Shown: positions 4,311 to 61,810 of the stretch, in pieces
Layout of the letters: the number at the start of each line of letters is the position of its first letter
How positions within the stretch are numbered: the stretch's first letter is position 1
Origin: Membranipora membranacea
Lineage: Eukaryota > Bryozoa > Gymnolaemata > Cheilostomatida > Membraniporidae
Length of the DNA stretch: 64,000 nt
NCBI GenBank assembly: GCA_914767715.1
Contig: OU612065.1
Coordinates: 3,906,001 to 3,970,000, forward strand
Direction of reading: 5' to 3'
Program-made: the position numbers and the translations under genes
The notes under the pieces: generated by a model
What the model saw: only the letters and a program-made list of their open reading frames with translations
The model's database searches: none
Told to the model about the DNA's origin: nothing

Positions 4311-5459
4311 TCAATTGATTCTCGAGCTAGCAGTATGTTTATCTCACTAATATTGATCTCGTTTTGTGCTGTTTGGTAAGAGTTGCCTCCACATTGATAT
4401 GACCAGTTAATGAGAAGCAACTCTGAATTGGGTAATAGGAGATTTGCAGTTCTTGTTTGACCAAACCTGCAGCCTTACACCAGAATACCTTGAATTTTAA
4501 CATCACATTTAGCCACCAAAATATCAATGGTTGTAAGGTACAACATGTCATAAACTACATAAAAAGTTACCCTACTATCAACGAGAGAAATCAGTCCCTG
4601 TTTTGAAACCCTGAAATCAATTATTTATTTTCTGTAAAAGGCAGTAAGTCATATTTCTGCTATTTATAAAAATATGACTGAAAATTGTATTTTTCCTTTT
4701 AATTTAATGCTGATGCAAAGAGCTGATGCTTTAGGAAACACAATCAGAAATCACCCTGTATTATATGGGATGTAAAATTCGTTGTCACTGAAAAATGCTG
4801 GTAGCATTCCTCTATCAATATGAAACCTGAAATCGGAACATTTGAGCCAGTGTCAGTCATCACTTGTATTGTTTATTACTCACAGCTGATTCTATTGGAA
4901 ATATTTTTTGACAGCTCATTAAGTAAGAGAAGATCACCTTCAGCATATCCACCACAATTGTAATATGAACATTGTTTCGGTAAGTATTCCTTTCATTACC
5001 GCCTTTTCCAAAAAAAAAGATTTTCACAGTTGCAAAACATAGGAATGATATCTTAATGCATTTGAGATAATTCAGTATGTGTCAGGGCCAACATCTTAGC
5101 AATGACTTCTTGATTTGAGGTCAAAAACATTTTTTCCATAAAACAATTTAAATTTCAAACATTTCGGGCCTAAACACTGATATAATGACACTGGAGGTAA
5201 TTAGCACTGTTTGGAAGAAATTTGTTTATCCTGGTTGAGTCAGCTAGTTCTCCTTGTACATTGATACAATGAACTCCCTCTCATTGATACAAGGCTTTTC
5301 TCCCCTGAATTCATTGTGGTCCGGCAAATTTAGGAGTTATCTTGTACTTCAGATGGGAAGGACAACTTGTGATTCAGATTTGAAATAATCCTTGTCTTTT
5401 CAAAGCTCATTGCTATGCCTTGTGGTGATTTGCATAAAGCTTGTATGCTTCATGTAATA
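4311..5459. other. intergenic, no gene seen
   Basis: No conserved protein or RNA could be recognised between the F-BAR gene and the first palindromic element. The stretch is AT-rich. A short palindrome-like CAATGAAC...CATTG motif sits at 5267-5286 with no clear flanking duplication. Confidence 0.5.
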
Positions 5460-7282: not shown

Positions 7283-7380
7283 CATGGGCCCCTGGGACTT
7301 ACATGTCTTTACTTTGCCAATGTCCAGTATCAACCACTGGACATTGGCAAAGTAAAGACATTAGGACCCAGGGGCCCATG
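7283..7380. mobile_element. 98-bp palindrome, short version of the 60-kb foldback
   Basis: The left arm CATGGGCCCCTGGGACTTAC continues through TTTACTTTGCCAATGTCCA and meets its reverse complement around a small loop near 7330. GTTATAG flanks both sides (7275-7281 and 7381-7387). The arms match the outer ~55 bp of the 460-bp foldback at 60056-60515, so this looks like an internally deleted member. Confidence 0.85.
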
Positions 7381-7424
7381 GTTATAGTTCACTCAGTGAG
7401 ATCACAACCAACATAAGCTGTCAA

Positions 7425-7443
7425 CAGTGAAGGGAGTTCATTG
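7425..7443. mobile_element. 19-bp nano-palindrome with 7-bp TSD
   Basis: CAGTGAAGGGAGTTCATTG has near-inverted ends and is flanked by CTGTCAA on both sides (7418-7424 and 7444-7450). It is a member of the CAATGAA/TTCATTG family described in the findings. Confidence 0.65.
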
Positions 7444-7634
7444 CTGTCAATATTTATTTATTAAGCCTGAGCAGGATAAGCCAAGAAGATGAGCAGCTGG
7501 GAGTTCTATGGAATATGCAAACCAAATATGAGTATGCTACTATATATATGGCTATCTATATGTGCTTGAAAGTAATGATCTGCATATGAATATTGCAATG
7601 AACTCCCTCTTTCATTGTTCATTAATGTAAGTAC

Positions 7635-21044: not shown

Positions 21045-21205
21045 GGGACTTGTAGGCCTACAGCATTCATTTGGCAAATTGAATATTCCAGTATCAAACA
21101 CCAAGGTGTATTTTGGTCGGTTGATTAATAATACTGGTAAATATTGGCAACGCAATGAATGAGTTCATTGGGCAAAGTAAAGGAATGAAAGTCCCGGAGG
21201 CCACT
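21045..21205. mobile_element. diverged copy of the CATGGG foldback family, carrying an insertion
   Basis: CCCTGGGACTTGTAGGCC at the left and GGCAAAGTAAAGGAATGAAAG then TCCCGGAGGCC at the right match the arms of 7283-7380 and 60056-60515. A CAATGAA/TTCATTG nano-palindrome sits at 21153-21170 within the right arm. Confidence 0.65.
21153..21170. mobile_element. 18-bp nano-palindrome with 7-bp TSD and empty site
   Basis: CAATGAATGAGTTCATTG, flanked by GGCAACG (21146-21152) and GGCAAAG (21171-21177). The two sister copies of the host repeat read ATTGGCAAAGTAAAG without it (near 7350 and 60477). Confidence 0.75.
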
Positions 21206-21339: not shown

Positions 21340-21427
21340 CTTGGTGTGTGGCCAAGGAGTTTACTCCTTGGTGTCACCAACTAGGGACCATTATCCCTGC
21401 AGGGACCAAGGAACTCATTGGTGTTAC

Positions 21428-21460
21428 AAATGAACTCCCTGGGAGAGGGCCAGTTCAATG
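21428..21460. mobile_element. 33-bp nano-palindrome with 7-bp TSD
   Basis: Begins AAATGAACTCCCT and ends GGCCAGTTCAATG, a decayed CAATGAAC/GTTCATTG palindrome. GTGTTAC flanks both sides exactly (21421-21427, 21461-21467). Confidence 0.65.
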
Positions 21461-22140
21461 GTGTTACATGTGACGTGTGAAATGTACTGTAACTCCAGTC
21501 CTTGCTGGAAGTGGAAGCAAGGAGTAGTAATAGCTGCTTGCTGGAAGCAGGGAGAAAGTCAGTGAGTCAGTTTTAAGCCTGATATAACTGTTATAGTTCT
21601 AAAGAAAGAGAGTTTGTTCATTGAGCGGGAAATTAAATATGTGTGGATTTTTAGTTACAGTTCAGAATGGATAACACTGTGTGGTTCATCATTGACACAC
21701 CTTTTGGATAGTCCCTCACAGGCACAGATACTATTGACACTGGGGCAGGAGGATTGGTTTATGGCGGGTAATATTAAATTTGATTGAGCTTGATCATGTG
21801 ACATGCACATGTTTACAGCACTGAACTAGCCAATCAGCAGCAAGCTAAAATATGATTCGTTCTTATTTATTTATTTATAGAGGTTTTCTTAAAAGTGTAC
21901 AGATAACACAGGGAATTCTATTATAGGTAACTTGTTGACCTCTGAAAACAGCAAAAAAAGCATATCGAGCTTACTACCAAAGTTAATTATAATGAACAAC
22001 ATGTGACATGAATATTGGGTATGAGTTATTTATGAAATAAAAAATGTATTGACGAAAAATAAGTTCGGATAATAGTGTTGCAGTTAAGGAGCTGCAGAAT
22101 AAACGTTGGGTAAAGATATAAATGTTCAATCTATAAGTCA

Positions 22141-23720: not shown

Positions 23721-23723
23721 ACT

Positions 23724-27925: not shown

Positions 27926-28098
27926 ATGTTAACATAACATAACATCGCTATATTCTATGGCTGTATTAACTGAAAATAATTGCGGGGGAGCTCTGCCACA
28001 TAATAGGACAACAATACTCAGGGGGATTTCCCCGTGCCAATCTGGAAACAAAGAAAAGGGAACGTATATCTGAAAAAGAAGTTGAAGTTTTGGTAGAG

Positions 28099-28132
28099 CA
28101 ATGAACTCAATGCAACTCAATGAATTTCATTG
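28099..28132. mobile_element. 34-bp nano-palindrome with 7-bp TSD
   Basis: Starts CAATGAACTCAATG and ends CAATGAATTTCATTG. GGTAGAG flanks both sides exactly (28092-28098, 28133-28139). It looks like one palindrome inside another. Confidence 0.65.
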
Positions 28133-28671
28133 GGTAGAGATACCTCAAAATCACCTTTTGAAATTGGTCAGTAGATCTGAGTTAGTAGTTAGAGGTAGAC
28201 AACTCCTCTTTGTTTACATTATTGGTCTATCCACCCTACCAAGATAGACCAATCAGGAGGCTTAGATTTACCCTTTTTCATTGGTCCTGCCCCAGTGCTA
28301 AGTTTAGAATCTCCCGTGACGTGCCATGTAAATTTTCACATATGTTTTATTGAATCACTATGAAAATGACCAAGAATGAAAATGACCTGAGATGAAATTG
28401 ACCTGGAATGAAAATGACCTGCATAATGAAAATGACCCGAGGTCAGGGTCATCTTAAGCTGTCCGACTCATCCCGATATTGGCAGGTCACAAAAAGTCTA
28501 TTACCGGAAATGAAAATGACCCAACCAATCATAAACCTATATGAAAATGACCCAACCAATCACAACCATATATGAAAATGACCCAACCAATCCCTGAAGG
28601 TGTTACAACATAGTATTTAACTTTTGTCATAGTTAAAGGTAAAGTATGGAATATATACATAGCTATGGTAG

Positions 28672-28697
28672 CAATGAACTAAACCTTTAGTTCATTG
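28672..28697. mobile_element. 26-bp perfect nano-palindrome with 7-bp TSD
   Basis: Two 12-bp arms, CAATGAACTAAA and TTTAGTTCATTG, around CC. ATGGTAG flanks both sides exactly (28665-28671, 28698-28704). It lies inside the left arm of the 3.1-kb element, where the right arm has no counterpart. Confidence 0.75.
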
Positions 28698-29119
28698 ATG
28701 GTAGGCTATCTGGGGTGGGGTTATGGACCCCCCACTCCTGCCTGCCTACCAGTTCACCAATTCAAGAATTGTCATTTTTCTGTTAGAAGATTCAAAATAT
28801 GTGGTGACACCTATTTGACAGGTGACACTACTATTGACAGCCAGAGTTTTTTTAGCAGAGATCACATCATTTTTCTTGTTGTAATTTAATCATAGGTTAA
28901 ATCAAAATGAACTCAACCATGGCCCTTGCATATGTATGTGTATAATTAATAAATAAATATGTATTGTGTGTCTGGAATACTTTCCCATGCACAACAACAT
29001 TTTCATGTACCAATCCAATCTAATCGCCTGTTGATTGTTATAATAACCAAACCAAAACAAGTTGATTCTGTGTTGATAAATCAAGTGAGGGCCAGCTGTG
29101 GACGCCATCACCGGGCATA

Positions 29120-29400: not shown

Positions 29401-30768
29401 TTAGGCTTATGAGTTGTTGTGTCTCATAAGAAACTGATAAAGCTGTTCTTTCTCTTCTCAGTCCTACACTTTTCAGCTCTTTTAATCATAGGTCTGCAAG
29501 AGGATGTTCTACAAGTGTTGAATCTTATACGACTAAAAGATCGATGGCTCGGATTGTTGCTAATCTTTTTAAAATAATTTTGTGACATAGAAAATAAAAA
29601 TTCATTGACAGTAGTCAAGTTTAGAAGTGATAACCGTTCTTCATAACATTCAATATCAGTATAAATAATCTTAGTGGCTGTCTTTTGTCAGTGTTCGACA
29701 ATAAACTATGTCCATAATGTAGCAGAGCACACCAACCATCCATTTCACCATTACCTACATTCAAACCCTGTCACATCACAAAACCCCGGCCCTCCCTTAA
29801 TTAAACACAGCTCTTTGCGGAAAAAGCCTTTTTTTATAAATACACCTAACTACATCATTACCTTTTTTCTTATTGTTTCGTTTTTTGTTGTTATTTACAA
29901 ATACAATGGTCATAATATCTTTTTGATTTGATCGGTGTTAAATATCATATATCAAAATTTCAAACTAAAAAAACCAAGAAGCATAGAAAAATAAATCATA
30001 ATTAAATAATAAATTACATAGCGCAAAATACTATTGCTGTTCGAAGCGCTTCTGTAGTCCTTATTATATGTTGTGCAGTAGCGTCCGGATTGACAATCTA
30101 TCACAAATTCATTTCTAAAGTGACATTTATCATGTATATATCTGAGAGAGAGGGTCTTACGTTGATTAGTCATCAGAGTGTTGATCGTAGAGAGGTGAGA
30201 ACAATGCTCGATATCAGCTATAACATCTCATTTAGTCAGTAAATGACCTTTGTGGTTGCCAATGTTTGATGACTGAATTGGAGTAATCATTTGCTTGTTT
30301 GAGGACAAAAGTGACAAATGCACACAACATGACACCATGTGCAAAATGTAACAAAACTCTGCACAAAATGTGACAACGTGCAAAACCCAACAACAATACA
30401 AAATTCCTTAACTATTGACCGCTTTCTGTTGCCATCATCGCTAGAAAATTGGAGTATGTGACGAGCAACATGACTGTCAAAGATATTACAGCAACCGGAT
30501 AGCCTTGCCCCAGTAATTTCACCTGCAATAACACGCAAAAAATATATATGCTACTCAATGCTAATGTTGAAGTTAATATGTTTAGAGAATTATGAATAGT
30601 CATCAAAAAGTTAGGAATTCAGATTTTGTTTTGACTTTTGAGCTGCTGAAAATATCTTAAGATATCCAAAATACACAATGCTGCTATGTTATAGACAGCA
30701 AAATGTGTGGTGTATTCTTACTATGTATATTTAATTATAAAAACGATACTGTATGTCCACCATAAAAT

Positions 30769-30786
30769 CAATGAAGAGGTTCATTG
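30769..30786. repeat. 18-bp CAATGAA/TTCATTG palindrome, no clear TSD
   Basis: CAATGAAGAGGTTCATTG. Flanks ATAAAAT and ATCAAGA do not match, so either the duplication has decayed or this one is coincidental. Confidence 0.4.
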
Positions 30787-32008
30787 ATCAAGAGTCAACA
30801 TAATAGCAGCTGTTAGCAAAGTGAAACTGATACATGTGTGTAACTAGCCTAGGCCAGTCTGCGCATGTGCGAACTGTTGAGGCATACGTTCGTCTCTGCA
30901 GCATAGGGCTTGAACTAATTCACCTAGTCTGAGTACCAAAATTGGGAAAACAATCGAAACCCATAATTTAGAAATATTTGGGCCTAAATGGAACACTGGT
31001 TTTGATATCTCATAACCTTGAACCCTGGGAGTTGCCTTTCTTGATGGAAGGCAGCGCCACCACTGCTGTGCTGCAGAGATAGACTATGTCTCAAGTCTAG
31101 CCTGCAAGCAGAATGAGCCTAGGCTACCTCTCTTGGTTAGGGGGTTTGTAACCCCACACCAAACAGCCTCCCAAGGCTGTGTAAATATTCCTCATTTACC
31201 TTTAACTATGAAAACCTTCAAGGATTGGTTGGGTCATTTTCATATATGGGTGTGATTGGTTGGATCATTTCATGTAGGTGTCTGATTGGTTGGGTTATTT
31301 TCATGTAGGTGTCTGATTGGTTGGGTCATTTTCATTTCTGGTTATAGACTGATTTAATCTCCTTGCACCATTTTATATATATCAAGGTCAACTTAAGGTT
31401 GTTTTCATACTCAGGTCATTTTCATTCTGGGTCATTTTCAATGTTTTCCGCTTTATTCATTTATTTACAAAGCTCTGATGGAACGGGCGATATAACTATT
31501 CCACCCGTCCTTGATTAGTGTGTACCCAGAACTATAAACAACTTTTCATTTTACTGAGTCAAGTAAGACACATTGTCAAGGGCATTTATCCTAGTTTAGC
31601 AAAGATCCTAATTTAACAGGGTATCTTACGAGACAGTATCCACAAATCTCTCTATTTATATATACCTGGTTTAAAAACAGTTTTAACTCACAAACCTGGG
31701 TCTCTGCAGGGAGCAACCCTGGTACTCCTTACTCCTAAACTCGGGTCTTTGGCAATGTTCGACTGCCCACCTTGAGTTTGTGTTGTTCTGTAACAAACAA
31801 AAATGCAAGGGGCAGTCAAACATTGAACAGACCCAGGTTTTGGAGTAGACCTGTGGTAGATACCTTTGGATACATTGAATATTGAATACCTTTGAATACA
31901 TTTGATTTGACGACATTGAACACTCAGTAACATTAAAGTAAAATGAGTGCCTTATTTGGCTAACAGGTTTTACCACAGGGGTTTCAGCAAGAGCTGCTGT
32001 TCTTTATT

Positions 32009-33165
32009 TTAAGCATCAGTGGGTAATTGGTAATTCTCCTTCACAAGGGGTCGAACTACCACCCTTTGTTCCCAGTTGTGGACTGACTGGGGTTTGTGCT
32101 TTACAGCTTGCTTCCTCTGGTATCCCTTCATGGCTAGTGGTAGAAAACTACCGTCCCTTATGGCTAGTGGTAGAAATCTACCGTGTAAAGCTTGAGACGC
32201 CGGATAGACAGAGGTCATTTCACCTCTGGCAGCAGCCCTTGTTTTCACCATAGGACTGCCGCAGTTCCTGATTTTGGGCTTGGTGTGGGTGGGGGGTGGG
32301 GGTGGGAAGGATGGAAGCTCTATTTAATTTGCAATTCGAGGTTTTTGAAATAAACACAGCTTTAACTGCCATAGTTAAATTCTTTTTCATACCGGAAACA
32401 CTTTCTGATTGGTTGAATCATATTGTTTTGATGTTGCTTGGAAATCAGACTACCGCCACATTTAAATGTTTTGAAGATGACTACATTGGAGCTGACAGAC
32501 ATAGTGTGCTGGTGAGGGTATTATATTATGTTTAGTATGGTACCCACCCCCCAGCCACACCGAGCCCAAAATAAGGAACTGCGGCAGTCCTATGGTTTTC
32601 ACAGTCATATTTTCACGGTCCATCGAGATTTCATCATAGGCCTGAGTCAGGGTGTTTTTTCTTTCCTCATCCTGAAGTATCTTCGTCAGTAGGGCTAATC
32701 TGTGGTTTTTTCTCCTCTGTTTTAGAGACTGGAGGCCAAGTTCAGAGCCAGCCTCAGTGACACTCTCTCTGCCTTCTAGGTCTAGGCAGCTCATAAACCT
32801 GATTGCTCGATTTTGTATCATCTCTAGAGACTCAATTTCCTTGTTTAGTGTCGGGACCCAGATCGTGTCAGCGTACTCTAGTACGGGAAGTCACAGACTT
32901 TTATAAGCCAATAGGCGCCCCATCCTGGGAGCATCATGTAGGATGTGTTTGATGGATCCAAGTGTCCTGGAAGCCTTCTACTTCTTAAGCGTCATATGTT
33001 GGTCAAACTTATGGTCAGATTGGAAAATAACACCAAGGTACTTAGTAACACTAACCCATTCCATACCTGTGCTCCCTAGTCTATACAGAGGCCTATAATC
33101 TTGATCTCCAAAAGCTAACACGTGGAATTTGGTGTCATTAAATGGCATTTTCCATTAAACAGACC
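32009..33165 (-). pseudogene. non-LTR retrotransposon RT C-terminal half, interrupted
   Basis: From 33165 down: FHVLAFGDQDYRPLYRLG, VTKYLGVIFQSDHKFDQHM, then after stops YADTIWVPTLNKEIESLEM, QNRAIRFMSCLDLEG, LGLQSLKQRRKNHRLALL, YDEISMDRENMTVKT. A MITE cuts in, and RAAARGEMTSVYP continues beyond it to FLPLAIRDGS and a stop at 32009. In-frame stops and a frameshift near 32885 show it is dead. Confidence 0.88.
32249..32594. mobile_element. 346-bp hAT-like MITE inside the retrotransposon
   Basis: Left end CATAGGACTGCCGCAGTTCC is mirrored by GGAACTGCGGCAGTCCTATG at the right; pairing runs ~45 bp. GTTTTCAC flanks both sides exactly (32241-32248, 32595-32602). The flanking retrotransposon reading frame (MTVKT then RAAARGE) is contiguous without it. 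Confidence 0.92.
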
Positions 33166-33269
33166 ATCTGTGCAATGAATTGATCTGTGTAAAGCATCTA
33201 TATTTGACTTAAATCTGGTAGCATCAGCAGGAGTGGAAACTTGTTGGTATAGAAGCGACAAACACTCAA

Positions 33270-33510
33270 ATATAATAAAATGAGTGCCTCAATTAATCCT
33301 TGCCTCAATTGAATCAGTGTTTCAGGGTGTTTGGCCACAAAGGTTTCAGCACATGTCATTTTTTATTTCCGTGGCAGGTGTTGCTGTAGTCCTCCCTTAC
33401 GGAGATTACACTAAACCCTCTTGTTCCAGCTTGATCCTGGGTTTGGTTTATGGTCTCGTTGTTTGTTCCTCTGGTGTCTCTTATGATCCTTGTTAGAAAA
33501 CTACAATTGT
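33270..33510 (-). repeat. second, decayed copy of the same retrotransposon tail
   Basis: TAAAATGAGTGCCT, GGTTTCAGCA, TTCCTCTGGTGTCTC and TTAGAAAACTAC occur in the order seen at 31940-32155, the 3' tail of the element above. No intact frame remains. Confidence 0.65.
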
Positions 33511-33544
33511 AGAGTACTGTTGTGATTCGCCTATGTATATTCAG

Positions 33545-33600
33545 TGATCATGGACATAGTCAAAATGCAGGCTTGCAAGCTACAGAAGCCCATGAACACT
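33545..33600. repeat. repeat shared with 61749-61795
   Basis: GACATAGTCAAAATGCAGGC then TTGCAAGC and CAGAAGCCC match GACATACACAAAATGCAGGC, TTGCAAGC and CAGAAGCCC at 61749-61790. The family is not identified. Confidence 0.6.
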
Positions 33601-33834
33601 ATATCCTTAACTGTTCATACCAAGGACTCGGATTGCTCCTTGTTTCAGTATAGCCTACCAATGCCCACGTGCTCACTTAGTTTACTTACTAGTAACCTGC
33701 AGCTTCCTCGGCGTAGCCAGTCAACCATTGCCTGATCTAGGTCATGCAGTTGACAGTTTGACAGTTTGGGAGTTATCACCCAAAACCATAGTAGACTTAA
33801 TGATAAACCTAGACAGGACAGTACACAGCTAAAG

Positions 33835-33848
33835 CAATGAACTCATTG
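33835..33848. mobile_element. 14-bp nano-palindrome with 7-bp TSD
   Basis: CAATGAACTCATTG, with GCTAAAG on both sides exactly (33828-33834, 33849-33855). It is the smallest family member in the window. Confidence 0.6.
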
Positions 33849-34379
33849 GCTAAAGAGGGGCACTTAAACCACTGCTGCCACAGCTGGGCTTTGCCCAGCA
33901 TAGCCACCAGTCATAAGGTCACCCACAATTAAGTGTCTCAATGATAATGCATTATATAGTGTTCTGTCTAGGTTTATGGACAAAACTCATATTGGACTAT
34001 TCACCACGACTGGATATTCTATATGCAGCATATTCACACCATGTTGTATCTTATGTCAGGGATTATAAACCCCGTTTTATATATTGGTTTCCAATATTGC
34101 ATATATTTCTTGCTAGCAGTTATATCATAATTCCTATTTACACATGGCAATCATTAGCATCAAATCCCACCCTAAGATGGCTGCACCGTCTTTTAATAAA
34201 GTTTCAGGTGTTGTGGCGTATCACTAATATCGACTACAGTCAGTACGTTTCAGTCTCTTGGATGTTAAAGCTGGTTATAGGGTATATTTCTCATATAGTT
34301 CAAGGTCAGGGTATGTCTTACTTAGACTACACAGTTGAAGGTTTGAGTTGTATCCTGCTTAGCTGTGTACATTATTAGT

Positions 34380-35231
34380 TGCATCATCAATTGCGACTTT
34401 GTCACTCTCTCTACTTGGGCAAACTTCTCACATTCAATTAGCTCTTGCTTACGAACAGGGAGGCTTGACTTTCAATGTAAGTTTGTATTGTGAAAATGCT
34501 CTATTATAAGCATTTCCCCTAATAGTCTATAGGGGCTGGTGGATCTTGATATGCAAGCATATGAAAAGGAAACACTAAGAGGTAATGTAAGAGGTTGAGG
34601 ATTCAGACCAAACAGAGGAGGCCATACTTACCTGATACTTACCGAGGTGATCACTGCTTTGTAGCGTAGGCCTTTGGTTGGCTAGCCAGGGATGTAGTCC
34701 CATATTAGTGTATTGTGATTTGACAGCTTGATTTTGTTTCAATGTGTAAATTTGATGCCAGCCTTCAGCTCCTTATAACCCACACTGCATATCCTTCAGT
34801 AGGCATACGAGACTACACTGTCTTCTACAGTCAAGGTGTTCCCAGTCAAATATCTGTAACATACTTGTAGTTCACTGATTCCATTTGGCGTTCTTCAATA
34901 GATGTGAGTTACTATGCTCAGCTGAATTAACAAGATGTTATAGCTACTTACAGTTTCCGGTTCACTTATAGATGAGCTTCACTAGATGAGGTGATAAATC
35001 TTCTCACACAAAAATGAAATTCGAGGCCAGCACATTGTCAAATGATTAAGTCACTACTTGCACTCTGACAACTAAGTCAAGAGTATATTCACATCAATGT
35101 GGATACTTGTATTTCATAAAAAATATGTACAAATTAATACAACATGTCCTTCAATTCTGCATTGCTTGTAGGTAACATAGAGGAATTTCCCAGCTGAAAT
35201 AGTGTCTCCACTTTAGCTGATATCTAACGTT
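34380..35231. other. upstream of the ASB8-like gene, nothing recognised
   Basis: AT-rich. Its promoter should lie here, but no motif stands out. Confidence 0.4.
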
Positions 35232-38200
35232 ATGATTCGATCAACAGCATCTAACACTGACCATCATCAGATTGATCTGTTGTCTGCGATACAATATGGA
35301 TGCCTTGACCTTGTAAAAAGAGCTCTCGAGCAAGATAGGTATTCCAAAATCCTAACGTAGTGTTGGTTTGCAGTTATTTGATCACATGCATTAATGTAGC
35401 TGAGAGATCAGTAAATAACATTATAATCATTGATATATTATACTTACTACAACTCTGCGGTAGACTCATGCAGATAGAATTGACATATTGCCCCAAACTC
35501 CCTGGTTATATTATTCGTAAACTCAGCATCCATGTTGGAGTTGTGTATACATCTGTCTCCAATCTCAAGTTTGATGAACTTGATTTTTTTTTTACTTACT
35601 TGTAGATCAATGATGAATGATGAAACTGTATAGTATTAATCAGGAGGCAATACAATTATATTTTAGGTACATGTGTTAATGTCCCAAGAGGAAAATTGAT
35701 GCCTCTGCAGACCTCTGCTATGCTTGGAAGCATTGAGATAATGAACTTGCTTATCAGCCATGGTGCCAAGGTATGATTATAGCATAAGTAAATGCTAACT
35801 TAGTTGGCAATATAAAAAAAATGAGCATGATATATTGTAAATTTGTTTGTAAGGTCTCAACCAAATATTAAATATAGTTGAAAAGTAAATTGTGGATAAA
35901 CCGACGAATCAGCCTATCAGTACTTCCAGTACTCTCATTAACAGGTTGATGAAGTGGACGGTTATGGCAGAACAGCATTACACTATGCTGGAGAAACTGA
36001 TCAGCGGTTAGTTGAGATCCTACTGAGAGATAACAACGCTGACCCTCAGATTACCGACTCGACTGGCGCAACAGCGTTGCACTGGGCCGCTTATAAGGTA
36101 TGAAATTGTTTGCTGATTGTGCTTATATAGAACAATAGAGTCAATAGGACCACTTTCATTGATTACAAAACACCATCAACCTAACATATTGAGCATTACA
36201 GTAGTATTGAGAAAATCACCAGTCCATATAGGTTTTGCTCTGTAGCCCACTTTTTTACTTGTTGAAGTTTTATCACGTCAAAAATCTGTTTAACAGCCGT
36301 GCCACTATCTAGTCTTACTAATGTTCGCGTCCCAATATTATGATAGTTGTCTCCTTGCATCTATAGGGAGAACAACTCTTGAGAAATCGTAGCAACACAG
36401 CGATTGCTTTCTCCACTCCCCTGCTTTCTCCAGTAGAACACCTGGTGTTCATAAACCAATAAGTACACTATGGAAATATGACAGCTCCCAGTAAAGTTAA
36501 CAATGTCATGTGAATTTGTAAGAAAATGCACAAAGTTGACTATCATACCTTCCAAGGATCATGCAGAACACGACATCAGGAACTTAGTATGCTAGATGTG
36601 TAATTGGGAGCAAAGAAATTCGAAATTTTTGAGAATTGTTTCTCAATGGCGCCATTTAATTTTTGAGAAGCCGTTTTTAGCCAAATTTATAATCTACTTC
36701 GCCAAATGTTGGCGTACATACAGCATAAGTGTTCCTCCATACTTCACTATGCAGATCTACTCGTGAATTCAGTATTTCACACTCCCCAATGCCTTTGATT
36801 GAAGGTCATAAACTGTCCAGATAACACTTTCTCGATTATTACACCATGTCATTAGTGGTGTTTAATTAATATTTAACGAGTAAGCCCATAGTCCACTTAC
36901 AATCGGTCATATGCACTTAAAATTTGTGGAAATATAGAGTTTGAGTAAAACAGAGTACAACCTCTGCTATGTATCTACAATTTTCTATCAGCCAGTTTCA
37001 AGTGAAGCCCATATTGTTTTCTATCATTTTTTCTATCACAATTGATCCTCACCAAATTTATATGATTATTAACCATGGATTATCTTTCCAAGATCAAAAT
37101 TAGATAAGTGGCAACATTCAGGATTAACTATTATGAAACAGTGACAAAATAACATTTTGCCCAGCGAGTTTTGTTTAGTAGCCTCTAAGAAATTAATTTT
37201 ACAGAATGTCGGTCAAACCTGTTGCTGCTTTGAACATGCAGCCATTTTTATGTTGTTGCCAAATTTAAATACATAAAATGTGGAATAAATTGCGGTATGA
37301 TTGTCAAACAAAAACAGGTCATTGCAGATAAATTTTAAAGATCAAAGAACCTGGCATTAGGAAAGAATATTGGATGATCATCTCCTTGGTAGCATACAGT
37401 TGAAAACCGGACATGTATCCTCCACATGCAGCCCTGAATGATACATGCATATAGACTTAAAGGGCAACCAGGGTTTCAAACAAGTTCTCATCTATTGATA
37501 GCAGATTGTACCTTATGCATGGGGAAAAAGAGCAAATCTCAATCGGAAGATTATTCAGTGAGAATTCTGTTGAAACATTTCATCCATCAAGTGCTAAAAT
37601 GATGCTCAAACTCAACTAATATGGAACACCACAGAGCAGTTACCAGTTCCTGTTATATTTAGCATGTGCTCTGTCATTGTTACAGCAATGTCTTTGAACA
37701 TTCCCTAAACTGAAGTATTACTCAGCTAAGAGTCAGCAATTACTACCCATTTATGCATCGCTGCGAAACCCTGGTTGCCCTTTAATAATCTGCCATGAAT
37801 ATTGTAACACTTCAATCACAGGGCAACATTACACCTCAGCTGAACCACGGCTGCTCAGCCCCTGGGTTATAACCATAGATTTAAAAACAGTTTTTAAATC
37901 TATGGTTTTTAAATCTATGGTTATAACATAACATAACATATTAGATCAAGAAAATCTGGTAGCCTCTCGTATCATAGTGTAGATACAACCATTCACTGGT
38001 TTCTTTGTTTTATGCTTTAGGCTAAGACAGAATGTGTGCGCTGTCTTTTACAACATGGTGCTGTTGTAAACTCTAGAAACAGTAACAGAGAGACCCCATT
38101 ATTTTGGGCCGTTAGAAAAACTGCTCTTGAGGTTGTGAAGCTTTTTATGGACTATAATGTGGATCCTACCATAGCTAATGAGAAAGGGGAGGTAGCAGTG

Positions 38201-38985
38201 CAAAAATCATGGTTTCTGTTTGCTATGAATTTTGATTGTGATGATGATATAAGAATACTAGACCTGCTCTGTCAAGCGATGCCGCATCTTCCCTGGAATA
38301 ATTTGTCAAAGGTAAGTTGGTTCTCATATCTTGTCAGATGGTTTCCAATAAAACTCCTGTAGGTGAGTTCCAATCTAAATTCATCCAATCTAAATTCATC
38401 TAAGTTCAATCATCTAAGTTCAATGTTTCTAAACATGGAATTTGTTCACACAGGGACAATTAAACTTTCCAGTTCACACGGGACAATTACGCTTTCCAGT
38501 CATACTTTCTTGGTTGATAATTTGGGAGGATCTATAAAACATTCCCCTGAAAAACTGTACTATGTTAAAGTTTCTAGATTTATTCCTTCTATACCAAAGT
38601 ACGAGGAATGATAAGGTTCACACTGCTGGAGTATTCAGAGCGGCAACTCATTATCTCTCCAACATGCATGAAGATCACAAAATAAAGCATACTACCCTTT
38701 CCCTACTCGCTCTCATCAGTTGCTTATTTTCTTTTATGACCTTGTATCCTATTTTCCTTCTTTTAGAGTAGTTTATTGGAAGCTTTGTCCAGATATGAAG
38801 AGCCCCATTTAAGCAAGATGGAAAAAATGCTCCACGCCAGAAATACCACATGTCTCAAAAGGATATGCAGATACAAGATTAGATGTTTTATGGGACAAGT
38901 TTACCTTCCTGATAAAGTCAGACATTTACCGATCCCCCAAAAAATGAAAGACTATCTGTTGTTAGCGTCATCAAATATAACGTGA
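35232..38985 (+). CDS. ASB8: ankyrin repeat and SOCS box protein, ASB8-like
   Basis: Exons 35232-35338, 35667-35770, 35945-36097, 38021-38311, 38767-38985 give about 290 residues (human ASB8: 288). ASB proteins are substrate receptors of Elongin B/C-Cullin 5 ubiquitin ligases: ankyrin repeats bind the target, the SOCS box docks the ligase. Repeats visible: DLLSAIQYGCLDLVKRALEQ, then PLQTSAMLGSIEIMNLLISH, DGYGRTALHYAGE, GATALHWAAYK, CLLQHGAVVNSRN and RETPLFWAV. The last exon is a SOCS box: LKRICRYKIRCFMG, then VRHLPIPQKMKDYLLL. The ordered matches to ASB8 are close, especially YGRTALHYA and ALHWAAYKAKTECVRCLL. One junction is odd: exon 1 ends in phase 2, but exon 2 reads as ankyrin only from phase 1, so the total is one base off. 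A base-call error, an unseen micro-exon or an unusual splice site could explain it. Confidence 0.88.
37461..37781. mobile_element. TTAA-flanked MITE, copy 2
   Basis: Same inverted ends and interior as 6156-6524, between TTAA sites at 37457-37460 and 37782-37785. It lies in the 1.9-kb third intron of the ASB8-like gene. Confidence 0.8.
37867..37907. repeat. hairpin
   Basis: AACCATAGATTTAAAAAC pairs with GTTTTTAAATCTATGGTT around one A; a further copy of TTTTTAAATCTATGGTTATAA follows. It lies in the same intron. Confidence 0.7.
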
Positions 38986-41424
38986 AGAACTGCAGGACAT
39001 ACTAAAGTATAGAGTCGATCAACATAAATGATGAGCGTTTGTCGCATTGGCATTATTGGCAGTACTGATGGTTATGGTGAATAAGATGCACTCTTTATGC
39101 CCATGAACTGTGAGCTTTTAGCTGTTATTGCTTTTGACACCACACTTGTTAATTATTTATGTATCATAAATTGCTTAGCTCCACAGGTTCTATGAATTGT
39201 GGAGGGGGTAGTGAAAAATACAATCATCGAGTTGACAATCTTTATTGGGACGCAGAATGCTGACCTCTTGACGTGATATTTGTCACTTTGTCACTCAAAA
39301 TTTAACATCAAGAGGTCAACATTCGTCTTACCATATCACAGTGACAAAACAAGCAATCTTCTCATGATTTTATCAAGATTTTCAACTCTATAATTGATTT
39401 CTCTCTACCCCTCAGCAACTCACAGATTCTAGGAAGCTAACTTATTATACTGGAATATTTCACCGGCAAAATGGTGTCAAAAGCATAACAGCTAAGTGGA
39501 TAGATGCAAACATCTCGAGTAACTCACTGAAATTATTATTTTTATTTCACCAGCCAAGGAGTGTGCCGTCATTCTCAGTCAATGAGCGCCCTGTGATGAG
39601 TATAAGGGCTTGATCCATTGATTAATTTTCTCTTCTTCCATTATAAACTGAAGAATTTCATCAGCAATTCTCAATTACTGTCGGGATTATAGCACACCTT
39701 AGAACTAACTAGTGAATTAATTCATCTCTGCGATGATTTGCAAACCAATTCTAACAAAGATACTAAATACTTGTCATTGATTCTAAGGATTTTGACATCG
39801 GCATGGTTTTGATGGAATCAAATCAGAAACGAAATCAGACAATACAATATTGAAATTTCATGCAACATGAAAATTTCAATCTATGAAATTGTTCATTAGA
39901 ACTATGGTCAGGGGTGTACTTTGGCTTATAATAATCTTTTCACCTTCCAAAAGTCAATAGGAAGATCAGCCCCAGCTCAAAAGTATCAAACATATTTGTT
40001 TCTAATTTGTTACCTGTACCATTTGTTACCCCTGAGTATTTATTTATTAAATTTCTACATTTGATATTACAAATGAAATTATGTAGAGGGGGGGGGCTCA
40101 TTTTCATGAAATTGGATTTGCACAATCTAAATTCCACATTACTATTTACGGCCAGCTTGTTAAATGTAATTCTTCGTGTATTTTTGTTATCTCAACGGAA
40201 GAGTTTATGAAATAATAGCTGTGATCTTTAGACTGAGAGAGTAAGGTACCTGCTTTTTATTGCCACTGGCTGGCACCTAAAGTCCACTAGATGAGCGGAA
40301 ATGCTCTCTTGAGACACGCTTTTACTGCTCTATCTTGTAACTTAACACAGGAAATTATATTAAATTATCTGTAATGCATTTACACCATTATATTGTTTGT
40401 ACTGCTATGTCAATCAGTTGGTGATAATAACATTTCTGAGATTGAATTTGACTCGTGAATATGGGTTCACGCTGTGCTTGACCACTATCGTCTATATCGT
40501 AAATATTGCCTTATCACTTATAACAAATGTGCTCACATCAAGCATTACTACTAGTAAAATAGTCTAACCTATCACCGTGTCTGCGCTCTGAGTCTCAACT
40601 CCTGTCCTGCCTTTTCTCCATGTCTTGCTATTATTTCACTTGTGATCTTTGTTTACTAATTCGATGACATCAATACATATTAAGCCTTTAACATGAATAT
40701 CTAATGGAATAAATGACAAGTCAAGCCATGGTCAAAAGCTTTATCCAGTAAACAAGCCATCATCCAGTAATCTAGAGCTGATGACGTGATATCCGACATG
40801 GTGTTTACTCCGTTCAATAATGCTGATAAGAACAAAATATTAATCAGTGTGTGTGAGTATTTTTATTTACAGATTAAGTTTAGAATGAACATTGTATGTT
40901 TTTGGTCAACACAAAGAATGTTAATATATGCTTTCTGTCATATAAATCTTTCTCCGAGGCAGCATCATTGTGATGTGTTTTTAATTTCTCTTGCCAATAA
41001 CCTTTTTCCTGTTTTGTTATACTGGTGTACATGGTGAGTGAGACAGTTGGGCTCAATAATGAAAAAATCCTGTGGCAACTGAAATTTCTCCGATAGGCTT
41101 GGATATAATTTGAATCAAGTTACAAAATAACATTAAAACTCACGTTACTCGCTGATAGCGGTCATGCTCGTGACCTGTGAATAAAAAGAGTCACAAATTG
41201 TTTATAGATATGAAAATGCTAGATGTCAATGGATGGAATGGAATAAAACATGATAAAAATATGTTAATTTTCACAAGCATTATATGGCTCAGTTGTTTAA
41301 CAAAGGCTGACCAATTTCAGCGACAGGTAATTTCCAGTATTTTGCCAGGTTGGTATCCAGAATCACCTGAAAATTTACACATATTGGCTGCTCATGTACG
41401 GTGCCTAGGATACTGCTGCACAGA
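38986..41424. other. intergenic between ASB8-like and Ras-like genes
   Basis: No gene recognised. A 70-bp inverted repeat lies at 39255-39324 (GAATGCTGACCTCTTGA against TCAAGAGGTCAACATTC), and a G9 run near 40088-40096. Confidence 0.5.
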
Positions 41425-44400
41425 TCAGTTACGACCTGCAGTGATCCCAACCAGTCTCATAGCTGTACCGAGTTGACTCATAAACTCAGGGCAATGATCT
41501 TGTGATGCTGGCTTCTTCTTGCGAAAACTCAAATAAGAGAACAATCCTTTCTTTTTGTGCACTGTGTTGTCTTCTGTGTTCTTTGGGACCATCGCCCATA
41601 CTTCTACTTTCCATGTGTTGGTTTCGTAACACTTCTCTATGACTGAGTCAAAGAGCCTTCTACATTGATCACCATTAGATAGGTCAATGAAGAAATGTTC
41701 ACAACTGCTGTCTTCCATAATGCCAGCTGGAATCTGATAATTGAGCGTATTGCCGCTTGATCCTCGTTGTATATTACCGATTACAGATATTGGTACACCG
41801 TCATACTCTAAATAAACAAGAACAATGTTTTAACACAGACCGAAAAAAACACTTGATTATCATAAATTATAGATAGGGCCTAGGTAAATTAGTTACATTG
41901 GCTAGGTAAATGAGTAAAATCACTATTTATTTTGACTTTAGCTCACTGACATCTGCAGGCTTTAAACGTTTTTAGCCTCTGTCTCTTAGTGCTCGATGAA
42001 ATGGGCTGCTGATATCATAATTTCTTATCACATCAACCCTGATCTTCATACAACCAGTGAATCAATGCTCAATTTGTCTTCAGAAATAGGAACTACTCTT
42101 TTGTTTGAATGCAGTAGGTAAACCCACACAACCTATGACAAGAATGTACACCTGACTAGTAACATCAATTGAACAGTCTCAACTTTCAGCATATTTTGAG
42201 CATTGGTTGAGCTATTTTCAGAAGTGTGTATTTCGATACTTATAACCCCAGCAAACTCATCCAACCGCTGCCATTATGAGAAGGAGAAATTCACAATTTA
42301 TATACTTGTCTTAATTGTGATAGTGAGATCTTGAGAATTTTCTCAGTTTCTATAAAGCATCATCAGGGAGGTTTTTACTTTAGTTTAGGACCTCATATAA
42401 GTGATAAGAGAACTTGTGCAGGTCTTTAGTGCCTGGTATTAAGCTGCCATCATTTACCCCACTCTGTCCACGGCAGGACTTGAAATCAATAAACACTAGC
42501 CTAGCCACTAGCCATATTTGCACGTCCTAGAACACTACCCACATTCTGAATGCCACACACACTCGTAAATATCAGTAAGTTCAAAACAACTCATTGACAA
42601 CTATGATGGTGGAACCTAATTTTTATTCATCAGCGCAGAGAAAATTGAAGTGGCTGGTAATAATCGCTAACTAATTTTATCTTGCTGACTGTGTCAGTTC
42701 CGGGACTGTTCAGAGCTGCTGTTCGTACAAATATGATGACGCCGGTATAGATTATAAACTGTGGTACTATTTGCATCTACGAGGTTTTAAAAATAGATGA
42801 CTACCTCTATGATACATGGCAGCACTTAATACTCGGTCAATGTATCCAATTCTCATTCCAGTTGGAAATTGAAAATTGAATTTATATAGGAGCTTTTAAG
42901 TCGAAAACTAAATGTCAGCCTGTTCTAGCTAACAGAGGTACGTCTAGTTTATGATTGGGGCATAATACTGTCGGAGTTCATATTGAGAGCATTTGATTTA
43001 TCCGCAACTATTTAGAAACAATCTAGATCATATAACATTGATTTCCGAGACAACTTTTTATATCATCATTGGCTTCACTGTAATCTGAAATTGATGATAT
43101 TACATTAATGTCAGTGGCAAAAATTATGGTCTGTATGAAGTATGCAATATGCCCACCTCTCATTTGTTGCACTTGCTTCTTCAGAGCGCTTGCCATCATT
43201 ATGCTGTTTGATTCAGCAACATTATAAACAATAATGATAGCGGTGGCAGAACGAATCCTTAGTTCTCTCATTGCCGGAAATTCCATAGAACCAGCAGTAT
43301 CAACCACATTTACTGTTTTATATTTTCCATCTAAATAACAGAAAGCAATGTGTGATTACTAGTGATTATAGATCCAAAGAACTTGATCTGTTTATCAGAA
43401 TATATTACCCAGACATACATAGACATAATCAGATCACAGCTCACCTGCATGTAGAATAAGGGTTAAATGTTGCTAAGTGGTGGTTTTGGCATATTTCATA
43501 TAATGGTGTCCTCCATAAGAAAGATGTATCAACTCTCAATTGTTGATAAGTTCTTTGAATGATCTATAGGCCGACTATAATACGTGCTTGTATAATATAG
43601 ACAGGCGGCAGACAGCGCTGCTGTGTTGTGCTGCTGATACATCATCAAGTTCCTCACACTTGTTCTTAACCCTATCAGGTTTTATACGATATGCAGACAG
43701 TTATAAAATATTTGTTATGCAAAAATGATTCCTATTTTATGAGTCAGAGAAAGCATTGAAATATTAAATCATCAATTATTCTCTACAAGAAACATGTCTC
43801 GGTGTTCTTCCCATTGGTAAAGTTTGAGATGATGCAAAGAAGAGCTGTTATATATAGGCCTAAATAACACACGGCTGACTGCTTTGTTGAATTGTGCTGC
43901 TGACGCATCCCCAAGCTTTTCACGCAAAGTCTTACCCAACCACGTTTTGTACCACGCAGACAATTATAAAATATTTGCTATGTAGTCAAATGATTCAATA
44001 TTTTCTGAGTCAGAGAAATATTGTAAGTTGTCTCATGAAATAACTCAAGCCAAAATAAGTCTGGCAGTAACAAAACAATACTGATCTAGGGTCAATGTCA
44101 ACCTTATGTCCACAGATAAGCAGGTGTCAATGACAGTAGGTAAATGCGGTGAAATTTTGCCTGTAACACCAATAACATTTAACATTTGTGATGGAGAAAG
44201 CATTGAAAGGCATTTTATTTCCACTTAAAAAAAAATCTATTGCCAGCCATGGTACGGAAAGGCAGCAAAAGCTTTAGTTTTTTATGATCATTACAAAAGT
44301 TTTAGAGATTACTGTAGGCGTATTCCCTGCACACAGAAGGTGTATTTCATGTGTAAATTTCTTAACTTATAGTCTGAGTTGAGACTGGAGCCTTCTCCAT

Positions 44401-54800: not shown

Positions 54801-57800
54801 TAGAAGTGGTAAAATACCACCACATCACAGCGGAGGAGAGCGACCTCAAGACAATAATAAAATCAAGGTCTGACAATACGATAACAGTCAATTAAGTAAA
54901 GGACTATAAATCAACATATAAAACTTATGTACTGGATAAGCCTCTCGTCTGTCTAGTATAATCTTCTGTAGATAAACTCTTCTCTCATCAGTCAAACCTT
55001 CAGCCCTCTGCCATGTGGGCGGCTCCTTCCTCACCTTCTCTAGTCGAGCCAAAAACTTCCGTACCTGGAATGGTTGTGATAAGAACCAATGAACTCCCAA
55101 GTATAAACTCAACAAGAAAGTCTGAAAGTTAAACAAATGGTTTTAGGGAATCTATCTTGTGTATACAGTATGATTATTCCTTATGTGTTTCTTTATTTAA
55201 ATGTGAATATATATATAGGCACTCACACATCTCTGTATAACAACAGCAGACTTCACTCTAACAATCTTCTGTTTTCTCTGTGTGAAATCTCTCCTGACGT
55301 TGTGACCTCTCCACGCTGTCTGTATGGTTAAAGCTGAGTGCTCTCTCATGTTCTCCAGATGGCGCGATATTGCTGAAGCCGGCAGCATACCTAATATCTG
55401 TATCTGTTTCTCTCTGGTGGCTCTCATAGCCTGCTTACGAGCTACTGTCAGCTGATGAGTCAGTGCTGACTTCATCTTATCCTCATCCTCTGTTTGCTGC
55501 TGCTGCCGCTTCTTCACTCTACATGACAAATATTCTTTTGCAATGTCATGGATCAAAATCTGAGCAGTGGCTTGTGGGTTGTTGATGACACTTCGTATTC
55601 TCTCATATGGTTCATGCAGCTTAAATAACACCAAGCACTGTTACCTCTCACCTCTTTCCTGAATTGTCATACAAAACCAATCAGAATTAGTAACTGTCAC
55701 TCCTCCTGGGAAGATTATTCTCTACATGCTGCATTAAGTAGACTATTCTTACCTGAATGATCTCTGTAGTTTAGTGAAACCTGCACTGGCTTTTTGTAAT
55801 GATTTTCTTGTTTTGAAGCTTTTATAAACAGATTGAATAAGGGTGGCTGCACGATGAAACTTCTCTGTTTCAACTCTTCGAGCATTTCCAGCATCGAGTA
55901 AACCAACAAATTCCTTCAAATCTCGACCGAACCCCTGAAATGGCAAGCAAGCAATCTCATAAATTGAGCATAGAAGCAAGGATCAATGTTGTGGGTTTCA
56001 GGGAAAATGTGGTCCAAAAACTTTATCAGATGTTGGCCTTTGATTGTTTGATCGTTGTTTGATCGATTGGAGGCAAATCTGATCCTGGTGGATTCTGATT
56101 ATACAATGCTGCATAAAATTGGTAAGTAGCACTCCATGTGTTGGCCAACTTCAGGTTATTTACAACTCTAACAATAACCAGAGCAATCAATAGAGACATT
56201 ACCTGACCAGACCATCTGCTCATAAGAGGTCTCAAGCCGCGATATCTCGTACAGATAATCTGTATGAAGTAGGGCCGTACTTGACATATGAGTATTAATG
56301 TAGAAATGGCAGAGCTGTAAAAAATATTAACAGCATTAATGTTTCTTCAAAGTACAACTGAAGTAGTGATGATCTACAACTGAACAAGGCCAGTGAAAAT
56401 CGCACATAAGGCCACTTCAAAGATGACAGTCAATAAAAACAGGTAGATGGAAGATACATATTTATATTGTGTTCTAACAAAAAATGCTACCAATATGGAC
56501 AAAGGTGTATTTTTCTTTTTACCTTTCCATCATGAAGATGGATATAACTACCAATATATAACTCTAGTTACATTGGGGCTGTTTAGTTCATTCTCTCTCA
56601 ATTTTTGTATGCATTTTTTTATATAAACAGTCAATATTGAATGTAAAATAAACTACTTTAACTGTGTAGTGGTTTAATGGTAACAATATTGGCTCATACA
56701 AGTTCAACAGTGACTGAACTGTATTATATGGAAGGAGGATAGAGTCATATTGTGTGCTGAAGCCAGAGTATATAAGACCTCTGTGGCCTCAGCACGAAGT
56801 ATTACTCAGTAGTTCTCTGGTTTTCCATTTTTTATAGTAATAATAATATCAATTTTATTTGCTGATCAAGTCATAAATGACACATAAGACTCATAAATGC
56901 AGAGAACTCATAATTTAAAATTCTCACTTACTTTGCCACATATTTGTCAACTCCAGACACAATTTTGAAGACCATCTCATCAAGTAATGAGTGAAGAACT
57001 TTTTCGTCTAGACTAGATATAACATCTGCATTAACTCTGACAGCATACTGTATCAGATTGAGAGCTGAATGAGCCGTATCAGCGTCATCGGATATAAGCA
57101 TCTGGAGAAGCCACTGAGATCGCAAAACTAGGAACAAGATAGACAAGGTTTGGGAGTCGTGTTTCCAATGCCAGAGAGCAGGAAATCATTAATTCCAGTT
57201 TTATCAAAATTGATGTAGGCTAGAATCGGGATGGTCTATATGCCCAGACAATGGCAAAGTGATTAGAGAGGGTAAGTTTAAACGTGCAAGTTCAGAAAAA
57301 AGTCCAGGAGAAAGTCAGCTGAATCTCCTCAACTAAAAATCAGGATTTTTTGGGATCAGGTCAGTAATTAAAGACTATTTCAATGGTGCAATAAATATTG
57401 CACATGTTTGATAACAATAACAGTAAATATATACCATTATTTGTCAAAAAGACATGTCCACTAAAAAGAGTGTTCATCGCCTCCAGCGCAGTCCTGAAGT
57501 GGTCCAGCATTTCCTTTTTTGAGGTTGCGTCATGCTGTAATAAAAGATAGGATAAATGTACTTGATCAGTTGATCAGTCAGCCAATGTTTAAAAGGACAA
57601 CGAGTCAAAGAGATAATAATGAAAATTACATGAGGCATTTTTAATCGCAAAAAAAGTACTCCACAAGTTGATTGTGGAGAAGAAAACAGTAAGATTATTA
57701 AAAGTGCTATTTAAGTATGTCAAAACATTAGTTCAAGCTAAGTATATGTTCTTCAACATGAAGTTGTCATTCTATTATACCACAAAGTATAAGCAATGCT

Positions 57801-60047: not shown

Positions 60048-60055
60048 AGGCCATA

Positions 60056-60515
60056 CATGGGGGCCTGGGACTTACATGTCTTTACTTTGCCAATGTCTAC
60101 TATCAACCACCCAAACAACACCAAACAGGTTAAGACACAAATTTTTTTTTTTTTACAACCTTCCTTGAAATCTCTCACACTAACTCACACCTCCTTCCTC
60201 TTTCATTCGCTTCAGGTTTGAAGGTTCTAGCACAAACAGAGCTGACTTTATGGACCAGAGAAAAAAGATGCCTCTCCTTTCTGCCTTTCAGGTTTTTTGT
60301 AAATTTTGTAGAGGCATCTTTTTTCTCTGGCCCATAAAGTCAGTTCTGTTTGTGCTAGAACCTTCAAACGAAAGAGGAAGGAGGTGTGAGTTAGTGTGAG
60401 AGATTTCAAGGTAGGTTGTAAAAAAAATGTTTGTGTCTTACCCTGTTTCGTGTTTTTTGGGTGGTTGATAGTGGACATTGGCAAAGTAAAGACATGTAAG
60501 TCCCAGGGGCCCATG
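60056..60515. mobile_element. 460-bp foldback element with 8-bp TSD
   Basis: Two ~210-bp arms are nearly exact reverse complements: outer CATGGGCCCCTGGGACTTAC (right arm, read inward), then CTTTACTTTGCCAATGTC, GTTTGAAGGTTCTAGCAC and GAGGCATC-type sequence to a ~30-bp loop near 60290. AGGCCATA flanks both sides exactly (60048-60055, 60516-60523). No coding capacity. A diverged copy and a 98-bp version lie at 21045 and 7283. Confidence 0.93.
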
Positions 60516-60523
60516 AGGCCATA

Positions 60524-61355
60524 GTATCTAACTATACTCAGTTTGTCTTGAAAAATAGCAAGTGGACATAGTAGAAACATCGTATACAGGGTATAGTGTC
60601 TAAGAGTTTATCTGAGAATGTAATCACATTATTAATCATAATCAGATATGTAGTACCATAGAATAATTTTTTTTTGCATATAATAAATATTAATGAATAT
60701 TATTCAAAGTCTACCTGTCGAAACTTCAATTTAGTTTTTGTGGCCAGAAAAAAAGATGAAACCCTTAGTAAAGTGTAATTTTCTATTATGATGTAGAAGA
60801 GAAGACTTTGCTAAGGGTTATCTCATACTTCAATACCTCTCATATCTCCTACCCCTTAGCAACAGCACACAATAAAAAGAAAAATCAAGCTTCTTCTGCA
60901 AAGAGTGTCAACTTGGTTCACTCAAACCTGAATAGAAGATTTTCATTCGTTAATACTTTGTCAAAGACATTATCATTGGTCAAATTATATTCAGTGCCGG
61001 CCTAATCATTTCCGTTATGCCCTGCATTTTAATTTCATGATCTAACCAAATACACAGGTTTGACAGAAATATAAGCTACTACACTTACCTAGGATGTTCA
61101 ATGAATTATAATGCTGAGCTTAAGCAAAAGAGCTGTTGAGATTGTTGAATACGCGGTAAGGAAGTAGTAAACAGTTCAAGAAAATAGTTACTGTCCCTCA
61201 CTTTCACCAACTGCCCAAGGAGTCTCCTTGCTCGCTGCTTTCACTCCACTGACTCTAAGTTAGTCTAAGTCTCACTCCACCCTCTGCTTTCTGTTGTGTC
61301 TCACATGGTCCTTTGGGGCTTTCATGTCTGATTTTTTTTTCTAACACTGTCCAGT
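60524..61355. other. no gene seen
   Basis: AT-rich with poly-T tracts (60667, 61331). No recognised protein or repeat ends. Confidence 0.4.
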
Positions 61356-61392
61356 CAATGAACTCCCTCTTCCAGGAAGAGGGAGTTCATTG
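61356..61392. mobile_element. 37-bp perfect nano-palindrome with 7-bp TSD
   Basis: Arms CAATGAACTCCCTCTTCC and GGAAGAGGGAGTTCATTG pair over 18 bp around a single A. GTCCAGT flanks both sides exactly (61349-61355, 61393-61399). It is the largest and best-preserved family member. Confidence 0.8.
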
Positions 61393-61810
61393 GTCCAGTC
61401 AACCAATTGGACATTACAAAATAAAGTACAGTTGTGAAATACCCTTTACCAGTGGTTCCTACATATCGTAGCTGCGGGTGGATTGTGTATACCCACAAAT
61501 GAGTGTAGCGAAAGTGGAGAATTGAGCCTAGCATACACGCGCCCCAGCATGCAATCACACGAATCCAACATGTATTCAGGCAAGCGCACTTTACCTGCCA
61601 TTGTACTCCTTTGTTCACCAAACAAAAGGCCTTTTGTTACACAACTCTCATAGGTGCATTGGGGCATATCTCCCTGACATCGGCCCCCAGGGCCTATCCA
61701 ACATACTGCAGCATAACTGTACTTTATTTTGTAATGGATGGTTGAATAATGACATACACAAAATGCAGGCTTGCAAGCCCCAGAAGCCCTTCAAACCATA
61801 TGTAGGCATA

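Follow-up and report, generated by a model that had tools for sequence, protein, structure and literature searches.

Short palindromes with 7-bp target-site duplications in Membranipora membranacea, probable excision footprints of a P-like transposon

The window analysed here is a stretch of 64,000 nucleotides from the bryozoan Membranipora membranacea (contig OU612065.1, positions 3,906,001 to 3,970,000; coordinates below are counted from its first base). It carries a LINE-type open reading frame with endonuclease and reverse transcriptase domains (7626-9752) and, on the minus strand, a beta-1,4-galactosyltransferase 7 open reading frame (19790-20353), whose closest named relative among the best 120 of 951 matches is from the bryozoan Watersipora subatra (58% identity). 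The repeats detected include a 172-bp segment in two copies of 96% identity (13079-13250 and 14215-14386) with a palindromic AGCTCAGCT/CCACTT structure, two tandem arrays based on ATGAAAATGACC, inverted relative to each other and ~2.6 kb apart (28360-28592 and 31223-31440), and a ~100-bp palindromic repeat, likely a MITE, at 7277-7386, 60053-60110 and 60461-60515, half copies included. The subject of this report is a set of much shorter palindromes with CAATGAA-type and TTCATTG-type ends, enclosed by 7-bp direct repeats.

All seven palindromes listed in the original prediction were found in the window, and the 7-bp flanking repeats claimed for them, six of them exact, were confirmed: six of the seven pairs are identical and GGCAACG/GGCAAAG differs by 1 mismatch. 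We searched the whole window for pairs of CAATGAA and TTCATTG, allowing up to one mismatch in each arm and a gap of 0-30 bases. Among the 27 pairs detected, 6 are flanked by an exact 7-bp repeat and 7 by one with at most 1 mismatch, while the flanking 7-mers of the remaining 20 differ by at least 3 mismatches. Exact flanking repeats of 4, 5, 6, 8, 9 or 10 bases beside the borders were found at 0 of the 27 pairs. A set of 209 permuted motifs produced 2211 pairs, with 1 exact 7-bp repeat and 10 repeats with at most 1 mismatch, so the excess over shuffled motifs holds within the 64-kb window (6/27 vs 1/2211). Since exact repeats occur at 7 bp, at none of the other lengths and rarely in the controls, the duplication behind the signal is sharply delimited at 7 bp. 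The 12-mer CAATGAACTCCC additionally occurs 6 times on both strands together, vs 0.005 occurrences expected from base composition.

A scan for 7-bp repeats around any stretch beginning or ending like the motif added 5267-5282 and, less surely, 33173-33182, bringing the set to nine sites, named here by the first base of the insert. In this one-ended search the true motif gave matches at 10 of 41 occurrences, representing 7 distinct sites, and the permuted motifs gave 34 matches at 2894 occurrences (~1.2%), with at most 4 for any single motif. The chance rate is higher for the one-ended type, and 33173 is therefore graded only as probable; for 5267 the agreement with the shared end also runs over 15 bases in a row. 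The candidate at 39748 (CAAAGATACTAAATACTTGTCATTG) has an exact repeat and was excluded, merely 3 and 6 nt agreeing with the ends; the rows 7589, 21371, 39748 and a second 61349 row were excluded as chance or overlapping. A motif-free scan for inverted repeats of at least 6 bp within an exact direct repeat recovered 4 of the 9 sites together with several other structures. The set of palindromes with 7-bp repeats is solid and beyond chance.

For most sites the insert can be read as a fragment of one shared end, CAATGAACTCCCTCTTC(C), followed by a fragment of the reverse complement of that end (the footprints are listed without strand). The fullest lies at 61349..61399, where GTCCAGT repeats enclose CAATGAACTCCCTCTTC-CAG-GAAGAGGGAGTTCATTG; the insert (61356-61392) fits equally well as 17+17 nt of the ends plus CAG and as 18+18 nt plus A. 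At 5260..5289 the site is one-ended, ATTGATA + CAATGAACTCCCTCTC + ATTGATA, where the left end contributes 15 nt, followed by C, and the right end 0 nt (15+0). Between the CTGTCAA repeats at 7418..7450 the insert 7425 holds CAGTGAA (one substitution) and 12-13 nt of the right end, about 7+13. At 21146..21177, GGCAACG/GGCAAAG flanks CAATGAA-T-GAGTTCATTG, which is 7+10 nt of the ends with 1 nt added. The probable member 33173 (33166..33189), a 10-bp footprint CAATGAATTG between ATCTGTG repeats, has 7+4 nt with a 1-nt overlap and is the weakest of the set. A 14-bp footprint, CAATGAACTCATTG, lies between GCTAAAG repeats at 33828..33855, with 10+6 nt of the ends overlapping by 2 nt (microhomology). 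The footprints 21153 and 61356 were observed to lie within degenerate copies of the ~100-bp palindromic repeat.

Two footprints carry longer fillers. At 28092..28139 (duplication GGTAGAG) the 28099 insert has 10+7 nt and a filler of ~17 nt that repeats bits of the end sequence and includes CAATGAA. At 28665..28704 (duplication ATGGTAG) 9+9 nt of the ends surround an 8-nt filler, AAACCTTT; this 28672 filler (CTAAACCTTTAG) is palindromic, is absent from the end sequence and has 6 nt in common with its own left flank, reversed. A templated source for the fillers is weakly indicated. Since the 28672 filler is palindromic and foreign to the end, either fold-back synthesis or a variant end has to be assumed for it; synthesis at breaks by fold-back or through a stem-loop has been described (PMC11292364, PMC11724301). 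The site at 21421..21467 is an older, mutated footprint with exact GTGTTAC repeats, in which the exact end match of insert 21428 is 0 and 2 nt, and 13 and 9 nt with one mismatch. The region 21371-21467 as a whole reads GTGTCAC, 43 bp ending GGAACTCATTG, GTGTTAC, the footprint and GTGTTAC, and its three GTGTYAC copies may stem from two events in succession at a single target.

Three further places resemble the ends and are outside the set of nine: 7596..7617 (left end 16 nt and right end 7 nt, 1-nt overlap, no duplication), the doubtful member 30769..30786 (CAATGAAGAGGTTCATTG without a duplication, 3/7 mismatches) and a lone 12-nt end CAATGAACTCCC on the plus strand at 55087..55098, with neither partner nor duplication. 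All three may be scars with a lost flank. The junctions comprise overlaps of 1-2 nt (33835, 7596, 33173), additions of 1 nt (5267, 21153, 61356) and fillers of 8-17 nt (28672, 28099). As the original prediction noted, the loops vary while the ends stay: 9 of 9 inserts have different sequences, with lengths from 10 to 37 bp.

The palindromes are insertions. We joined the two flanks of each site with a single copy of the duplication and compared this with the rest of the window, which detected spanning paralogs for 3 of the 9 sites, clean for 2 (21153 and 28672) and weaker for 61356. The empty site for 28672 (31140..31243, minus strand) carries TTGGGAG once and is gap-free up to 12 bases from the junction; TTGGGAG in this diverged copy agrees at 5 of 7 bases with the ATGGTAG present twice at the filled site. 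For 21153, one empty site (60053..60100, minus strand) has GGCAAAG once and is likewise gap-free over those 12 bases, and a second (7287-7330, minus strand) has GGCAAAG once and no gap near the junction. Both read GGCAAAG, and the left copy GGCAACG is thus probably the mutated one. The weaker empty site for 61356 (7283..7357, plus strand) has GTCCAGT once with a 2-bp indel just past it, and did not reappear at the stricter E <= 1e-3. At 1000 random pseudo-sites a spanning paralog was found for 22 and a clean junction for 0, vs clean junctions at 2 of the 9 real sites. The paralogous empty sites bear out the claim of true insertions with 7-bp target-site duplications, cleanly for these two.

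Two-copy short repeats are common in 64 kb, which could make chance palindromes with chance flanking repeats look like a set, but the controls (1/2211 pairs, 0/1000 clean empty sites) and the excess of the 12-mer leave this explanation a nearly negligible probability. Chance is already refuted for the whole set, and the one-ended member 33173 could be due to chance.

The original prediction proposed a mobile unit of 14-37 bp, and this the inserts do not support, 9 of 9 being different and most of them readable as truncated ends of a larger transposon. Copies of one tiny mobile unit would recur; the nine inserts are all different, so they are probably not such copies. Terminal repeats and target-site duplications in most inserts would suit ultra-short mobile elements, units of 10-37 bp transposing in trans, but 5267 is without a second end and another insert is only 10 bp long. 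The end sequence needed by known P elements also counts against such units, D. melanogaster P requiring 138 and 216 bp at its ends and Anopheles P-MITEs carrying somewhat less than 100 bp (PMC1562414), and we regard ultra-short elements as extremely improbable. MITEs, including the Anopheles P-MITEs, share with the footprints terminal inverted repeats, target-site duplications and an absence of coding capacity; they differ in that their families repeat entire with a common interior (PMC1562414), while here the junctions vary within 10-37 bp. Tiny MITEs were rejected on the nine different inserts with no common interior.

We suggest that the palindromes are, with good probability, excision footprints of a cut-and-paste transposon like those of the P superfamily. 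A transposon with ends CAATGAACTCCCTCTTC... and its inverted repeat would have inserted, making 7-bp target-site duplications, and its transposase would later have made staggered cuts, at the transposon border on one strand and ~17 nt farther in on the other. Each broken chromosome end would thus be left with a tail of up to 17-18 nt of the transposon end, and the cell would have trimmed the tails and joined them by microhomology or templated end joining. The predicted product is the duplication, part of the left end, a filler or overlap, part of the right end and the duplication again. The parent transposon with its transposase and superfamily, the position of the cut at 17 nt and the pathway of repair are deduced from the footprints. 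The original prediction had also offered a repair process that inserts oligomers; its repair part comes close, but repair here would follow the excision of a transposon and would insert no oligomers.

This layout is known from Drosophila. There the two strand cuts made by the P transposase lie 17 nt apart, one at the transposon border and one within the element, a stagger described as unusual and atypically long (PMC7776569) and termed atypical in a preprint (PMC10983969), and P excision leaves chromosome ends with 17-nt 3' tails (PMC2895639). The P{wa} excision junctions in Table 1 of PMC2895639 consist of stubs of at most 17 nt from either transposon end between two copies of the 8-bp duplication, the stubs being connected by microhomology, blunt join or templated insertion; some have a deletion into the duplication (PMC2895639). 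The footprints detected here share with them the arrangement of duplication, end stubs, microhomology or filler, and duplication; they differ in the 7-bp duplication (8 bp in Drosophila P), in the end sequence and in being about nine natural junctions in 64 kb, the Drosophila ones coming from a laboratory assay.

The length of the inserts is in line with such a cut. The longest insert flanked by a duplication is 37 bp, consistent with ~17 nt retained per end. There is some circularity in the limit of 18 nt per side, since the end was taken from 61356 and the counting stopped at 18; independent of this, no longer duplication-flanked insert was found in the window, and 61356 alone sets the maximum. 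Pairs of 7-mer ends spanning 12-40 bp have exact 7-bp repeats at 6 of 26, and those spanning 41-5000 bp in the whole window at 0 of 2690. These counts bear on internal deletion, in which abortive gap repair would have left the tips of the element in place without final excision. P excision gaps are often incompletely repaired and then end-joined (PMC2895639), which favours that explanation, but breakpoints would be expected at many interior places, and with no insert above 37 bp and none of the 2690 longer pairs flanked by an exact repeat we consider it very unlikely.

Seven-base duplications are known within the P superfamily, 1360 having a 7-bp duplication at 274 of 279 insertion sites (PMC3276498) and Galileo for most copies (PMC4168063). 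The likeness to 1360 (Hoppel, ProtoP) and Galileo lies in the 7-bp duplication and, for 1360, in a GTTNAAC-like target motif, the end sequences being outside the comparison; the difference is that those are whole elements in Drosophila, with only scars seen here. The zebrafish Pdre2/THAP9 is P-like outside insects and has CA...TG inverted ends, but its duplication is 8 bp and its terminal inverted repeat is the 13-bp CATACCTGTCAAC (PMC10983969). The nine duplications, with the right copy GGCAAAG used for 21153 as in its empty paralogs, agree with the 1360 motif GTTNAAC at 2.78 of 6 positions vs 1.63 for the background (p 0.0014, uncorrected). GTTNAAC ranks 2 of 64 palindromic motifs, and p is 0.0002 when the doubtful 33173 is dropped. 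Agreement with the Galileo motif GTANTAC is not clear (p 0.061 with the nine sites, 0.033 for eight without 33173, 0.014 for the earlier seven). Judged by sequence, the resemblance of the nine duplications to the 1360 target motif is suggestive only.

The footprints might instead have been left by another superfamily (hAT-like, Dada-like or undescribed) that would leave long stubs too, an origin we consider unlikely. Counted in its favour is that CA...TG ends occur in hAT elements also. Dada duplications of 6-7 bp (PMC3706591) count on the same side. The hAT duplication is 8 bp (hobo 8, PMC3276498), vs 8-bp repeats at 0 of the 27 pairs here, and hAT was rejected on this length. Dada elements are described as inserting in small-RNA genes, with U6 and U1 families that lack terminal inverted repeats (PMC3706591), whereas the ends here are inverted repeats and the window has 0 tRNA genes and 0 Rfam matches; Dada, taken by this description, was rejected on its targets. 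The 17-nt stubs also argue against another superfamily, such a length being called atypically long in the description of the P transposase (PMC7776569).

A longer element with the same ends was looked for in the window, and neither an intact nor an internally deleted copy was found there. Pairs of 7-mer ends at 5-20 kb have exact repeats at 2 of 6648 (23685-31877 and 37793-43080), and both were rejected as elements, their sequence departing from the end past the 7-mer. When 12-mer ends with up to 3 mismatches were used instead, the window gave 308 long pairs, of which 2 have repeats with 2 mismatches (11679-14924 and 29177-34877), vs 5.5 expected by chance, and none has repeats with fewer. Pfam gave any match in 3 of the 10 scanned open reading frames, out of 16 of at least 130 aa, and a P-type transposase in none of the 10. 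With no intact or deleted element and no transposase found, the assignment to the superfamily rests on the footprint layout, the duplication length and the suggestive target motif.

Nine footprints and no element within 64 kb make an odd ratio, which counts against excision of a P-like transposon. The 28672 filler, the mismatches of 21428 and the duplication-less 7596 and 30769 are further points against it. Many scars with no intact element seen suggest a family that used to be abundant and is recognised today through its scars. Programmed or near-complete somatic removal of a P-like element, with germline copies kept and imprecise joining (compare ciliate excision), would also leave such scars, but there is scant probability of it; a family that was very abundant in the past and has died out is the far likelier source.

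Should this density extend across the genome, the footprints would amount to an extensive natural archive of how double-strand breaks are mended after excision; the figure of nine per 64 kb is biased upward, since it comes from a single window chosen for showing footprints. Each scar would display the retained stub, microhomology and filler, which would make error-prone end joining readable outside the usual model animals, and the P-like transposon with a 7-bp duplication would be one known by scars alone. We would also caution that, for palindromes of 10-40 bp with target-site duplications, a footprint is a more economical reading than an ultra-short mobile element. For other DNA transposons, excision in nature has been described in rice (PMC4423477) and, for Stowaway, in Triticeae (PMC1925063). 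Among the matches listed in open-licence literature, by title and the start of the abstract, no natural accumulations of P-type footprints were found, and none of the listed matches tied bryozoan genomes to the P element by title.

Two other structures in the window have 8-bp direct repeats. At 26143-26191, TTTTTAAC repeats surround 33 bp with 6-bp inverted ends AAAATT/AATTTT, possibly by chance in AT-rich DNA. At 37866-37927, in one instance, GTTATAAC repeats surround CATAGATTTAAAAAC-A-GTTTTTAAATCTATG, the last 15 bp of which occur twice; this is possibly the footprint of a second family with an 8-bp duplication and a templated filler.
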